Origin: an alpha proteobacterium HIMB5
GTDB lineage: Bacteria; Pseudomonadota; Alphaproteobacteria; Pelagibacterales; Pelagibacteraceae
DNA length: 64,000 bases
Assembly: GCA_000299095.1 (NCBI GenBank)
Contig: CP003809.1
Coordinates: 1,236,001 to 1,300,000, forward strand
Reading direction: 5' to 3'
The notes under the pieces were generated by a model, which saw only the letters and a program-made list of their open reading frames with translations, was not told the DNA's origin and made no database searches. Position numbers and translations under genes: made by a program. Shown here in pieces: positions 2,789-9,415 of the stretch. Positions within the stretch are counted from its first letter, which is position 1; each line of letters opens with the position of its first letter.

Positions 2789-4714
2789 ATGAGTAAAATT
2801 ATTGGAATAGATTTAGGAACTACCAATTCATGTGTTGCGATCATGGAAGGAAGTCAGGCAAAAGTTTTAGAAAATGCTGAAGGTGCTAGAACAACACCTT
2901 CTGTTGTTGCATTTACTGATGAAAATGAAAAACTAATTGGTCAGCCAGCCAAAAGACAAGCAGTAACTAACCCTGAAAATACGATTTTTGCAGTAAAAAG
3001 ATTGATTGGTAGAAATTTTGATGATCCAACTGTAAAAAAAGATATAGAAGCGGCTCCATTTAAAATTGTAAATTCTGAAAAAAATGATGCATGGATTGAA
3101 GCAAAAGGAGAAAAATATTCTCCATCACAAATTTCAGCTTTCATTTTACAGAAAATGAAAGAAACAGCAGAAAAATATTTAGGCCAAGCTGTAACAAAAG
3201 CGGTAATTACTGTTCCAGCTTATTTTAATGATGCACAAAGACAAGCTACAAAAGATGCTGGTAAAATTGCTGGCCTTGAAGTTTTAAGAATTATAAATGA
3301 GCCAACTGCGGCTTCGTTAGCATATGGTTTAGATAAAAAGCAAAACAAAAAAATTGCAGTTTATGATCTAGGAGGAGGTACATTTGATGTATCTATTTTA
3401 GAATTAGGTGATGGTGTATTTGAAGTTAAGTCAACAAATGGAGATACTTTTTTAGGTGGAGAAGACTTTGATAATGCTGTTGTTGAATATTTAATATCTG
3501 AATTTAAAAAAGATAATGGTATTGATTTAAAGTCTGACAAACTAGCACTTCAAAGATTAAAGGAAGCTGCAGAAAAAGCCAAAATTGAATTATCATCAGC
3601 TGAACAAACTGATATTAATCTTCCATTTATCACAGCTGATAAAACTGGACCTAAACATATAAACTTAAAAATGACTAGAGCTAAGTTAGAAGCTTTAGTT
3701 GAAGATTTAATTGCTAGAACAGTACCACCTTGTCAAACAGCACTTAAGGATGCTGGGATTACTGCAAGTGAAATTGATGAAGTTGTAATGGTGGGTGGAA
3801 TGACAAGAATGCCCAAAGTAATTGATGAAGTAAAAAACTTCTTTGGAAAAGACCCTAATAAGAGTGTTAACCCAGATGAAGTGGTTGCTATGGGAGCTGC
3901 TATACAAGCAGGTGTCTTACAAGGTGACGTGAAAGATGTACTATTATTAGATGTTACTCCTTTGTCTCTTGGTATTGAAACACTTGGTGGAGTATCAACA
4001 AAATTAATAGACAAAAACACAACCATACCTACAAAAAAAAGCCAAGTTTTTTCAACTGCTGAAGACAATCAGCCTGCAGTATCAATAAGAGTACTTCAAG
4101 GTGAAAGAGAAATGGCAACAGACAATAAATTGTTAGGTAATTTTGAGCTAGTTGGAATAGCTCCAGCTCCAAGAGGTGTTCCTCAAATTGAAGTTACTTT
4201 TGATATTGATGCAAATGGAATAGTAAATGTGTCTGCTAAAGACAAAGGAACTGGTAAAGAACAGAAAATTCAAATTCAAGCATCAGGTGGGTTAAGTGAT
4301 GAAGAAATTGAAAAAATGGTTAAAGATGCAGAGGCTAATAAAGAAGCAGACAAAAAGAAAAGAGAGTCTGTTGACGTAAGAAACCAAGCAGACACTCTCA
4401 TTCACTCGACAGAAAAAAATCTTAAAGAACATGGATCTAAAATTTCTGATGCAGAGAAAAAGGCAATTGAAGATTCATCTGCAGCTGTGAAAGAGGCTCT
4501 TAAAGGTGATAATATTGAAGATATCAAGAAAAAAACAGAAGCTCTAGTTCAAGCATCTATGAAACTTGGTGAAGCAATCTATAAATCACAACAAAATACA
4601 AAGCCAGAGTCTGGAAAAGATGATGGAAAAGACAACAAGGATAAAAAAGACGATAATGTTGTTGATGCTGACTTCGAAGAAGTAAAAGACGAAAATAAAG
4701 AAAAAAGCGCTTAA
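2789..4714 (+). CDS. dnaK: Hsp70 chaperone DnaK
   Basis: 641 residues, full length. The ATPase domain begins [14 protein letters not shown] and contains [30 protein letters not shown] and [13 protein letters not shown]. The substrate-binding domain starts near [14 protein letters not shown] (about residue 392), and the lid ends in a charged low-complexity tail closing with the DADFEEV motif. DnaK is the ATP-driven cytosolic folding chaperone working with GrpE and DnaJ encoded on either side. A strong Shine-Dalgarno (GAAGGAGAG) stands 9 bases before the ATG. Codon use is more G+C-rich than neighbours, as expected for an abundant protein. Confidence 0.99.
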
Positions 4715-6689: not shown

Positions 6690-7342
6690 TGAATGAAATT
6701 CAAAGAGCAAAAATAGTATTAAAAATACTAAATAAAACATACCCCAGAATTGAAGTCCCATTAAAAAGTAGGAATGTATTTACTTTGCTTGTATCAGTTC
6801 TTTTGTCAGCACAATGTACCGATGTTAATGTCAATAATGTAACAAAAGATATTTACCCAAAATATTTTAAACCTGAACACTTTGTTAAACTAGGAAGAAA
6901 AAAGATAGAAATATTAATTAAAAAAATTGGTATTTTTAGAATTAAAGCGAAAAGCATTTATAATCTATCGAAGATTTTAATTGAAAATCATAAAGGGAAA
7001 GTTCCTAAAACATTTGAGGAGTTGGAAAAACTACCAGGTGTTGGTCATAAAACAGCTAGTGTTGTGATGTCTCAGGGATTTGGTTATCCTGCATTTCCCA
7101 TAGATACGCATATACATAGACTTGCACAAAGGTGGGGTTTGACAAATGGAAAAAATGTTGTTCAAACAGAAATGGATTTGAAAAGGCTATTCCCAAAAAA
7201 AAACTGGAATAAACTTCATCTTCAAATTATTTATTATGGAAGAGAATATTGCAAAGCAAGAAATTGTTTTGGAATAAGTTGTAAAATTTGTACTTCTTGC
7301 TATCCTAATAGAAAAAAACCATTTATTGCAAAAAAACCATAA
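6689..7342 (+). CDS. nth: Endonuclease III (DNA glycosylase/AP lyase)
   Basis: 217 residues. It removes oxidised pyrimidines in base-excision repair. Helix-hairpin-helix LPGVGHKTASVV carries the catalytic Lys (K121), and PIDTHIHRL carries the catalytic Asp (D139). The C-terminal iron-sulfur loop has five cysteines (C188, C193, C198, C201, C204), but their spacing is not the usual C-x6-C-x2-C-x5-C (see findings). Start and stop overlap both neighbours as TAATG, making dapB-nth-pfkB one tight operon. Confidence 0.94.
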   Translation: MNEIQRAKIVLKILNKTYPRIEVPLKSRNVFTLLVSVLLSAQCTDVNVNNVTKDIYPKYFKPEHFVKLGRKKIEILIKKIGIFRIKAKSIYNLSKILIENHKGKVPKTFEELEKLPGVGHKTASVVMSQGFGYPAFPIDTHIHRLAQRWGLTNGKNVVQTEMDLKRLFPKKNWNKLHLQIIYYGREYCKARNCFGISCKICTSCYPNRKKPFIAKKP

Positions 7343-8268
7343 TGAAAATAATTGGAATCGGAAACGCAATTGTTGATATTTTATGTAAAGTTTCAGATGA
7401 ATTTTTAGTACGTAATTCTTTAACCAAAAGTACAATGAAACTTGTTAACGAAGAAGAGTTTGAAAAACTAATATCCTCATTAAAAATAGAAGAGACTATT
7501 TCTGGCGGATCTGTTGCTAATTCTATAGTCGGCTTATCGCAGTTAGGTAATAAAGTTGGTTTTATTGGTAAAGTTAATAATGATGAATTGGGAAAAAAAT
7601 ATGAAGAAGGCCTTAAAAAAGAAGATGTTGATTATTTATATAAAAAAAAAACAGAACCAATTCCTACTGGGTCTTGTCTAATTTTGATTACACCAGACTC
7701 TGAAAGAACTATGTGTACATACTTAGGAACTGCTGGAAAAATAAATGATAATGATGTAGATGAAAAAATAATTAAAAGCGCAGAAATTACTTTCCTTGAA
7801 GGATATTTATGGGATGAGGGCGATCCAAAAAAAGCTTTTGATAAAGCAATAAAGTACTCAAATAAAGTAGCAATGTCTTTATCAGATCTTTTTTGTGTTG
7901 AAAGACATAAATCACATTTTTTAAATCTAGTGAAAAATGAGTTAGATATTATTTTTGCAAATGAACAAGAAATCTTATCTTTAACAGGAGTAAATTCATT
8001 TGATGATGTGATTTCTTTCTGTAAACAATTAAGTAAAAATATTGTTATCACAAGAGGTGAAAAAGGAGCTATCTCAATCAATGAAAATGAAGTTGAAGAA
8101 TGTGAAGCTCACAAAAATCTAGAAATTAAAGATCTGACTGGCGCAGGGGATTTGTTTGCAGCAGGCTATCTTCATGGAATTATTAATAAGTTCTCTACAA
8201 AAGAAAGTCTGAAAAAAGGAACTGAATTATCATCTAAGATTATTCAAAAAATTGGTGCAAGGATTTAA
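7342..8268 (+). CDS. PfkB-family sugar/nucleoside kinase (adenosine kinase-like)
   Basis: 308 residues of the ribokinase/PfkB fold. The N-terminal IIGIGNAIVDILCKV and SGGSVANSIVGLSQLG (Gly-Gly substrate motif, about residue 55) are followed by the C-terminal signature DLTGAGDLFAAGYLHGI, in which the Asp of GAGD is the catalytic base. The N-terminal pattern resembles alphaproteobacterial proteins annotated as adenosine kinase, but the substrate cannot be fixed from sequence. The start overlaps the nth stop by one base. The stop overlaps the end of the ArfA-like gene on the opposite strand. Confidence 0.85.
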   Translation: MKIIGIGNAIVDILCKVSDEFLVRNSLTKSTMKLVNEEEFEKLISSLKIEETISGGSVANSIVGLSQLGNKVGFIGKVNNDELGKKYEEGLKKEDVDYLYKKKTEPIPTGSCLILITPDSERTMCTYLGTAGKINDNDVDEKIIKSAEITFLEGYLWDEGDPKKAFDKAIKYSNKVAMSLSDLFCVERHKSHFLNLVKNELDIIFANEQEILSLTGVNSFDDVISFCKQLSKNIVITRGEKGAISINENEVEECEAHKNLEIKDLTGAGDLFAAGYLHGIINKFSTKESLKKGTELSSKIIQKIGARI

Positions 8269-8369
8269 TTCTTTTTTCTTTTAAAACTTCCTTTACCCTT
8301 TTTAGGTTTAACTACTTTTAACTTATATCTTCTATCTGCTAAATTTTTTGCTACTAAATTCTTTTTCAA
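8265..8369 (-). CDS. Small ArfA-like alternative ribosome-rescue factor (34 residues)
   Basis: A 34-codon frame with a TTG start (8367-8369) that overlaps the TGA stop of the regulator gene as TTGA. A purine-rich GAGAGG lies 12 bases upstream. The product is almost all basic: N-terminal KKNLVAKNLADRRYK, then VVKPKKGKGSFKRKK. The KKGKGS(Y/F)xRK core is the signature of ArfA, which recruits release factor 2 to ribosomes stalled on non-stop mRNAs. E. coli ArfA is about twice as long with the motif near its middle; here it closes the protein. Motif and coupling are seen; the function is inferred from the motif alone. It could instead be another tiny basic ribosome-associated peptide. Confidence 0.6.
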   Translation of the reverse strand: MKKNLVAKNLADRRYKLKVVKPKKGKGSFKRKKN

Positions 8370-8920
8370 TTTAAATGATATCCTCTCTTGTCATGTTTTA
8401 TAAATTCATCTTCTTTAAATTTTTCTAGAAATTTTTTTCTTAATCTATAAATATGAGTTTCAACAGTATGTGTTTCTAATTCAGACGTGTGTTTCCAGAC
8501 TTCTCTTTGTAATTCTTTCAAAGTTACAAATTCATTTTCTACAATAAATAGAATTAATTCTGTCTCTTTTTCTGTCAAATTTAATTTATTATTATCTTTT
8601 ATAATTTGTCTTGAATTTAGGTTCAAAAAATAATTTCCTATTTTGATATGTGACTGGTTTGAAAATTTATTACTTAAGAACCAAATATTAATTTGTTCTA
8701 AAATTTTATCTATTTTATTTGGAGTAGATAATGTTTTACAATTTTTAATATTGTTTGTTTTATCTGAAATAACTAGGTAATTTTTTAATTCTAAAAAATC
8801 TTTTAGATAAGATTCTTGATCTTTATAGTGATCTATTTTAAAATTTAAATTTTCCTCAATTTCCTTTAAAATCTCAAATAAAAAAGGTGAACTTAAAATT
8901 ATTAAATTTTTAGAACTCAT
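8366..8920 (-). CDS. OmpR/PhoB-type winged-helix regulator with degenerate receiver domain
   Basis: 184 residues from the ATG at 8920. The C-terminal half (about 100-184) is a winged-helix DNA-binding domain: LTEKETELILFIV, TLKELQREVW, then the recognition helix THTVETHIYRLRKKF and the hairpin KHDKRGYHL. The N-terminal half has the length of a receiver but lacks the acidic pair after strand 1 (LIILSSPF), so ordinary phosphorylation is doubtful. No histidine kinase is nearby. It is divergent from the L,D-transpeptidase gene with 3 bases between the starts, and its stop overlaps the ArfA-like start. Targets are unknown. Confidence 0.8.
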   Translation of the reverse strand: MSSKNLIILSSPFLFEILKEIEENLNFKIDHYKDQESYLKDFLELKNYLVISDKTNNIKNCKTLSTPNKIDKILEQINIWFLSNKFSNQSHIKIGNYFLNLNSRQIIKDNNKLNLTEKETELILFIVENEFVTLKELQREVWKHTSELETHTVETHIYRLRKKFLEKFKEDEFIKHDKRGYHLN

Positions 8921-8923
8921 AAA

Positions 8924-9415
8924 ATGCAACTTATTTTAAAAAACAATAGTACTCTTTTATTGGATGAATTTAAATTTAAATGTTCAATTGGTAAGAATGG
9001 TTCTACATCAAACAAAATAGAAGGGGACAGAAAAACTCCAAAAGGTGTTTATTCTTTGGGCCCTTTGTTTTACAGAAAAGACAAGTTCAAGAATCCTGAA
9101 ACAAAATTAAAAAAAATATCAATCAAAAGAAATATGGGATGGTGTGATGATATAAATAGTAAAAATTATAACAAGCTGATTAAAATTGATAACAAAACTA
9201 AACATGAGAAATTATTTAGAAAAAATAAAATTTATGATTTATTAATACCAATAAATTATAACACAAATAAACCGATTAAAAAAAAAGGTAGTGCTATTTT
9301 TATTCATTTAACAAAAAATTATGAAAAGACACTTGGCTGCATTGCTCTTAAGGAAAATGATTTATTAACAATATTAAAGATTATCGATAGAAAAACAAAA
9401 ATAAAAATTCTTTAA
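8924..9415 (+). CDS. L,D-transpeptidase catalytic (YkuD) domain protein
   Basis: 163 residues. The YkuD signature is present: a substrate-loop pattern GDRKTPKGVYSLG (34-46), FIHLTKN with the catalytic His (H128), and KTLGCIAL with the nucleophile Cys (C139). The family makes 3-3 peptidoglycan cross-links or attaches proteins to peptidoglycan. No signal peptide is visible, so either it is exported by another route or it acts inside the cell; similar leaderless YkuD proteins are common in alphaproteobacteria. It starts 3 bases from the divergent regulator, and its 3' end overlaps yggS by 4 bases. Confidence 0.82.
   Translation: MQLILKNNSTLLLDEFKFKCSIGKNGSTSNKIEGDRKTPKGVYSLGPLFYRKDKFKNPETKLKKISIKRNMGWCDDINSKNYNKLIKIDNKTKHEKLFRKNKIYDLLIPINYNTNKPIKKKGSAIFIHLTKNYEKTLGCIALKENDLLTILKIIDRKTKIKIL

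Follow-up and report, generated by a model that had tools for sequence, protein, structure and literature searches.

In this study, which was based on a 64,000-nucleotide stretch of the genome of the alphaproteobacterium HIMB5 (the window, in which all positions are counted) and on searches among its relatives, we describe a conserved homologue of the ribosome-rescue factor ArfA in SAR11, a group in which a large survey reported none (PMC11633108, drawn on here, like the other papers cited, in excerpts). The 34-residue peptide is ordinary in kind, an ArfA, and unexpected in its place and form. In the reading that we favour and consider quite likely from the sequences compared, it would recruit RF2, stand in ArfB's stead, be the active product of a normally stopped mRNA and owe its level to coupling with an upstream regulator gene.

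Identification of the arfA gene

The gene occupies positions 8265-8369 on the minus strand, where an earlier note had suggested a 34-residue open reading frame with a TTG start hidden between longer genes; a Pfam match, conservation in the family, synteny and the absence of stops confirm that it is real. It encodes MKKNLVAKNLADRRYKLKVVKPKKGKGSFKRKKN, ends in TAA, and its TTG is the only ATG, GTG or TTG of the 41-codon stop-to-stop frame. As for the proposed membership of the ArfA family, the product passed the curated cut-off of the Pfam ArfA profile PF03889 (28.1 bits, E 1.4e-6, cut-off 25.5), and a search of NCBIfam with the same product gave no match at E 0.1. The solved structures that it matched up to E 1 were all named ArfA (6 of 6), although the matches were weak (E 0.023-0.07). 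Residues 2-32 aligned without gaps to residues 12-42 of the 72-residue ArfA chain in these structures, which we take to be E. coli ArfA, and in the structure alignment the product spanned E. coli residues 11-44. The ArfA core motif had been placed at the C-terminal end, and it is found there: KKGKGSFKRK (8274-8303, minus strand) makes up residues 23-32 of the 34.

Tyr15 aligned with E. coli Phe25 in the middle part that contacts RF2, and each of the 22 rows of the SAR11 alignment carried Y or F there. The alignment comprised 22 of the first 31 loci and showed N, L, KKGKGS and R to be invariant. Opposite E. coli Ala18 the product has Lys8, which is not a small residue; the position is not invariant in the family, being Ser in several PF03889 members (L300-L303, L306 and L308). 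In a published excerpt, the A18T exchange is described as inactivating E. coli ArfA. The product has no GGQ, the mark of the RF-1 domain by which ArfB is recognised, and its KKGKGSFKRK tail is not the KKGGSTNKK of the ArfT type; moreover, the DUF7230 profile (PF23876) had no match in the HIMB5 genome. That the product is a homologue of ArfA is well supported.

The TTG start overlaps the stop of the upstream gene in the tetranucleotide TTGA (8366-8369, minus strand), as had been noticed before. A weak, putative ribosome-binding-like stretch, AAGAGAGG (8382-8389, minus strand), can be read within the last codons of that gene, 12 nt before the TTG. The upstream gene (8366-8929, minus strand) encodes a winged-helix regulator of the OmpR/PhoB type with 187 residues, and it sits between arfA and a divergent gene of the YkuD L,D-transpeptidase type (8924-9415, plus strand, Pfam), which was also found at 25 of the first 31 SAR11 arfA loci read. 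On the other side, a convergent sugar kinase gene of the pfkB family (7342-8268, plus strand, Pfam) overlaps the end of arfA by 4 nt. The Pfam search of the regulator found the winged helix only (PF00486, E 1.3e-11) and no receiver domain. Its AlphaFold model (pLDDT 82, pTM 0.52, 10 sequences) matched full-length regulators of the OmpR/PhoB type (best E 3e-8, TM 0.45), among them 2hqr, which is titled an atypical orphan response regulator; the HIMB5 protein is probably likewise an orphan, with a receiver that has degenerated. The block THTVETHIYRLRKK was invariant in all ten aligned relatives of the regulator.

Conservation, synteny and selection

The ArfA model matched 199 of the 247 Pelagibacteraceae genomes (137 over the cut-off) and 86 of the 103 of good quality, while 48 of the 247 had no match. 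A scan for the pattern PKKGKGS[FY] confirmed at least 389 loci, and the 80 named loci that were kept among the matches listed all came from Pelagibacteraceae, Pelagibacterales or Candidatus Pelagibacter; because the scan required this pattern, the invariance of the motif in the scanned set is partly by construction. The product was 34-50 residues long in 70 named SAR11 loci, and thus the short form is not special to HIMB5 but usual across the clade.

The neighbourhood is conserved as well. The winged-helix regulator lay directly upstream of arfA in 114 of 127 loci, the convergent pfkB gene was present in 106 and both in 99, where the 127 are those read of 129 (L014 and L088 were missed) and include some loci twice. 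Removal of the duplicates left 121 distinct ORFs, 108 of them with the regulator. In 93 of these 108, arfA started inside the regulator gene; with the start chosen as the nearest ATG, GTG or TTG, the overlap was 4 nt in 51 loci, 20 nt in 23, 1 nt in 16 and 8 or 14 nt in three. The remaining loci had the start within 0-10 nt (nine), further away (five) or a CTG only (one). In the genus g9 (L003, L005, L009 and L017), arfA has an ATG start and lies in a different neighbourhood.

The dN/dS of the 28-codon core in 120 distinct sequences was 0.20 (2,658 pairs with a pS of 0.3-0.6) and 0.36 for 64 closer pairs, the pairs not being independent and a further 4,418, either saturated or lacking synonymous change, yielding no ratio. 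When the KKGKGS end was left out, it was 0.32 (2,873 pairs). The pooled pN/pS of 60 sequences was 0.24 in the arfA frame; the five other frames gave 1.05, 1.79, 1.42, 0.42 (a reverse frame) and 2.04. None of the 120 distinct cores had an in-frame stop, whereas the two other forward frames had stops in 108 and 120 of the 120; cores with an internal stop would be dropped from this set, which concerned at most one of the 121 distinct ORFs. The low dN/dS that had been expected of a real gene was thus observed (about 0.2-0.36), and neither a failure of the frame to be conserved nor internal stops, which would have spoken against one, were seen in the relatives. These values point to purifying selection on the SAR11 arfA core. 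A chance ORF was considered and discarded on the grounds of synteny, dN/dS and stop counts.

Rescue and release factors in HIMB5 and its relatives

The earlier note had asked whether the trans-translation system is present, and both components are found in HIMB5 alongside ArfA: an alphaproteobacterial tmRNA (223 bits) and SmpB. In a sample of the family, tmRNA was matched in 94 and SmpB in 99 of 117 genomes. A search for RF-1 domains in HIMB5 gave two proteins only, RF2 (with SPF and GGQ; L057) and RF1. A third match of the short, weak kind that ArfB would give was found in none of 41 Pelagibacteraceae genomes, 20 of them of good quality. Two of these were odd: G028 had three matches in frames of 259-346 residues, and G038 had a single one, at full release-factor strength, in a frame of 150 residues; both look like split RF1/RF2 genes. 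The sister family likewise had no match of this kind in the 14 genomes searched, three of which showed one release factor only. Among 22 other Alphaproteobacteria, which were not a random draw, 11 gave a weak third match of the kind that ArfB should produce (E 2e-22 to 7e-16). The possibility that ArfB is present and ArfA redundant was therefore abandoned for the 41 Pelagibacteraceae genomes examined, as no ArfB was found in them.

According to the excerpts of the survey, which covered over 15,000 genomes, arfA was found in none of 2,376 Alphaproteobacteria and arfB in 2,022 of them (PMC11633108). The survey used nucleotide profiles, which may explain why the arfA of SAR11 was missed. In the open-licence literature, no paper on ArfA of SAR11 cells was found by title or abstract. 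In G017, G026 and G035, which are near-complete and belong to the same genus, ArfA and a third protein with an RF-1 domain were both lacking, hence back-up rescue seems dispensable. In these three and in G074, also near-complete and of the same genus, neither ArfA nor the GKGS-less relative described below was detected, and these four may depend on trans-translation alone.

Probable absence of the non-stop switch

In E. coli, a terminator or RNase III cleavage turns the arfA message into a non-stop mRNA, the product of which is trans-translated (excerpts of PMC8012679). Regulation of this type was looked for in SAR11 in the form of a hairpin, a longer tail and a terminator, and was not found. 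SAR11 ArfA had 4-16 residues after the aromatic residue of the motif, five in 80 of 121 loci, compared with 13-48 residues in the 38 ArfA loci from other classes of the phylum. A hairpin in the 90 nt after the motif (z<-2 against shuffles; 8202-8291, minus strand, in HIMB5, where folding gave none) was present in a single one of the 121 SAR11 loci and in 34 of the 38 from other classes, a comparison in which the wide difference in AT content was only partly handled by the shuffles. Folding of upstream control segments passed the same threshold in 5 of 121 and 4 of 38 loci. The comparison set consisted of 40 loci, all from other classes, of which 38 were readable (L288 and L307 were missed); they represent the best 30 and a further 10 chosen of 51 matching genomes and are not random. 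A terminator-like site was not found between positions 7300 and 9500, where only 0.4 would be expected by chance. Both the hairpin and the longer tail are regulatory features that ArfA does not require for its activity. Given the short tail and the lack of a hairpin, SAR11 ArfA is probably translated from an mRNA with a normal stop and not from a non-stop mRNA policed by tmRNA, which would place it outside tmRNA-dependent control.

Among the full-length ArfA sequences of the other classes, 13 of 38 had tails ending in -AA, such as LAA, QAA, KAA or FAA (L290, L293, L297-L300, L302-L306, L308 and L309). The ssrA tag likewise ends in -AA. By analogy, it is as if the read-through product carried a degron of its own.

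Proposed function and alternative explanations

The best inference from the sequence comparisons is that SAR11 ArfA replaces ArfB as a rescue factor that depends on RF2 and is free of the switch. It would release ribosomes that are stuck at the ends of mRNAs without a stop codon. By homology, its basic C-terminal tail would enter the empty mRNA channel, and its middle part would recruit RF2, which would then cut the peptide off. ArfA would thereby take the place of ArfB in SAR11. The active form would be made directly from a normally stopped message, and its level would be set by translational coupling to the winged-helix regulator, which we infer from the gene arrangement, and not by a failure of trans-translation. 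The KKGKGS stretch of E. coli ArfA occupies the vacant mRNA channel, and the protein tolerates truncation at Asn47 and not further (PMC5378476, in part). SAR11 ArfA ends at the equivalent of E. coli residue 44, three residues short of this limit, which is one for the E. coli protein only; the basic tail FKRKKN may compensate for the shortness. Besides this shortness, the Lys at the Ala18 position, the 48 of 247 family genomes with no ArfA match and the apparent dispensability of a back-up in G017, G026 and G035 count against the favoured reading.

An unlikely alternative is an ArfA-derived adapter with changed partners that uses, for example, RF1 as well as RF2, as ArfT of Francisella does. 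This reading is prompted by the shortened N-terminus and by the exchange at the Ala18 position: E. coli residues 1-10 have no counterpart in the product, and position 18 is Lys. It also gains from ArfT itself, which is of comparable size (40 residues), lacks a terminator or RNase III switch and works with either release factor (excerpts of PMC6299226). However, the KKGGSTNKK of ArfT differs from the KKGKGSFKRK of SAR11, and an aromatic residue has been preserved opposite Phe25 (Tyr15, with Y or F in 22 of 22 rows). Moreover, at what we take to be the Val198/Phe217 pocket of the E. coli release-factor numbering, SAR11 RF2 has I and F, whereas RF1 has Ala at the second position.

Somewhat less probable again is an ArfA relative that binds ribosomes and is too short for rescue, or that has another job in the ribosomal channel. 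The product is indeed below the functional length limit of E. coli, and the GKGS-less relatives in the same family imply that this type of peptide may have other uses. Against this stand the purifying selection on the core and the invariance of N, L, KKGKGS and R in 22 sequences, although that of the motif is partly owed to how the loci were fetched. That the frame is open by chance and simply rich in lysine codons, or acts in cis as a leader whose peptide is irrelevant, is very improbable: it is small, AT-rich and K-rich with a TTG start, but synteny, dN/dS and the absence of stops stand against it, as does the presence of the gene in the genus g9 loci, where the neighbourhood differs.

Comparison with known rescue systems

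The RF2-dependent, switch-free ArfA that we prefer resembles E. coli ArfA (YhdL, PF03889) in the gap-free residues 12-42, in the motif KKGKGS[YF]xRK and in the presence of RF2 and tmRNA/SmpB in the genome. Unlike the E. coli protein, the SAR11 form lacks the first 10 residues, ends at about residue 44 and has no longer tail, and its gene has no hairpin and a TTG start that overlaps a regulator. According to the excerpts of PMC6299226, ArfT of Francisella tularensis is similar in its 40 residues, its basic C-terminus and the lack of a terminator or RNase III site ahead of the stop codon; it differs in having KKGGSTNKK for KKGKGS and in working with RF1 or RF2, and its authors think that it is independent of ArfA in origin. 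BrfA of Bacillus subtilis is likewise a small, RF2-dependent rescue adapter, but it has 71 codons and is produced from a non-stop mRNA (PMC6881298, in part); its sequence is called unrelated in that paper and homologous in PMC11633108, as excerpted. ArfB presumably has the same role as SAR11 ArfA and differs in having a GGQ catalytic domain of its own.

SAR11 bacteria have been called the most abundant marine microorganisms (PMC12753301, excerpted). An ArfA match in 199 of 247 family genomes, together with the lack of any ArfB-like protein in the 41 searched for one, alters the view of how streamlined genomes rescue their ribosomes. SAR11 ArfA offers a natural, nearly minimal ArfA without a tmRNA-dependent switch, which makes it testable whether an ArfA system depends on the switch or can lose it. 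It likewise becomes possible to test why arfA is carried by viruses of marine samples.

Wider relatives and viral copies

A search with the SAR11 alignment matched 15 of 385 Alphaproteobacteria, three of them Pelagibacteraceae. The other 12 comprised seven sequences with a KKGKGS-like stretch and five without GKGS, and three of the eight that were scanned with Pfam passed the ArfA cut-off. When 20 of the 48 ArfA-negative family genomes were searched again, nine held a GKGS-less relative, for example MKRNPIAKALRTPKFKKKVIKDKKKYNRKK; the other 11 gave one chance hit in a long ORF and, in ten cases, nothing at E 0.1. Of 117 family genomes, 12 had the GKGS-less form, and all of these lay outside the ArfA-positive set; six of the 12 sequences were read and six rest on the score. 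A profile comparison linked SAR11 ArfA to the GKGS-less form (probability 98, E 4e-14). One GKGS-less sequence just reached the DUF7230 cut-off (27 of 27 bits) and two others that were scanned did not. These peptides share the first half of SAR11 ArfA, N-x-x-A-x-x-L...KK, but DUF7230 (PF23876) lacks GKGS. GKGS-less relatives of ArfA, some of them DUF7230-like, were seen in SAR11 and sister-family genomes at L061-L069, L249, L250, L252 and L253. DUF7230 as a common alphaproteobacterial family was not borne out, with at least 3 of 289 genomes, a lower bound because the model misses the GKGS-less peptide of G003.

A tblastn search of a phage collection gave no match, perhaps because the consensus query was short and lysine-rich. 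In viral contigs, at least 600 stretches matched the pattern, of which 271 were confirmed and 80 kept among the matches listed. Over the first 20 core residues, the mean identity of SAR11 was 57% with the kept viral copies, a set chosen by similarity, and 29% with five cores of other classes. The gp30 protein of pelagiphage HTVC027P is called ArfA in PMC12753301 (in part). Its core is of the SAR11 type, NPVAKEVRTPKYKSQIIKPKKGRGSFKR, but it has 58 residues with an N-terminal extension and scores 20.2 bits with PF03889, below the cut-off. It is conceivable, though we hold it only tentatively, that SAR11 swapped ArfB for a stripped, constitutive ArfA shared with marine phages and that the GKGS-less, DUF7230-like peptides form a second, unrecognised branch of the rescue family. 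A long C-terminal extension with AGNYTKP was present in 23 of the 80 viral ArfA loci (L173-L176, L184, L202, L232 and others). In L202, the ArfA core (around positions 3001-3093) lies between matches to phrog_2423 and phrog_17747.
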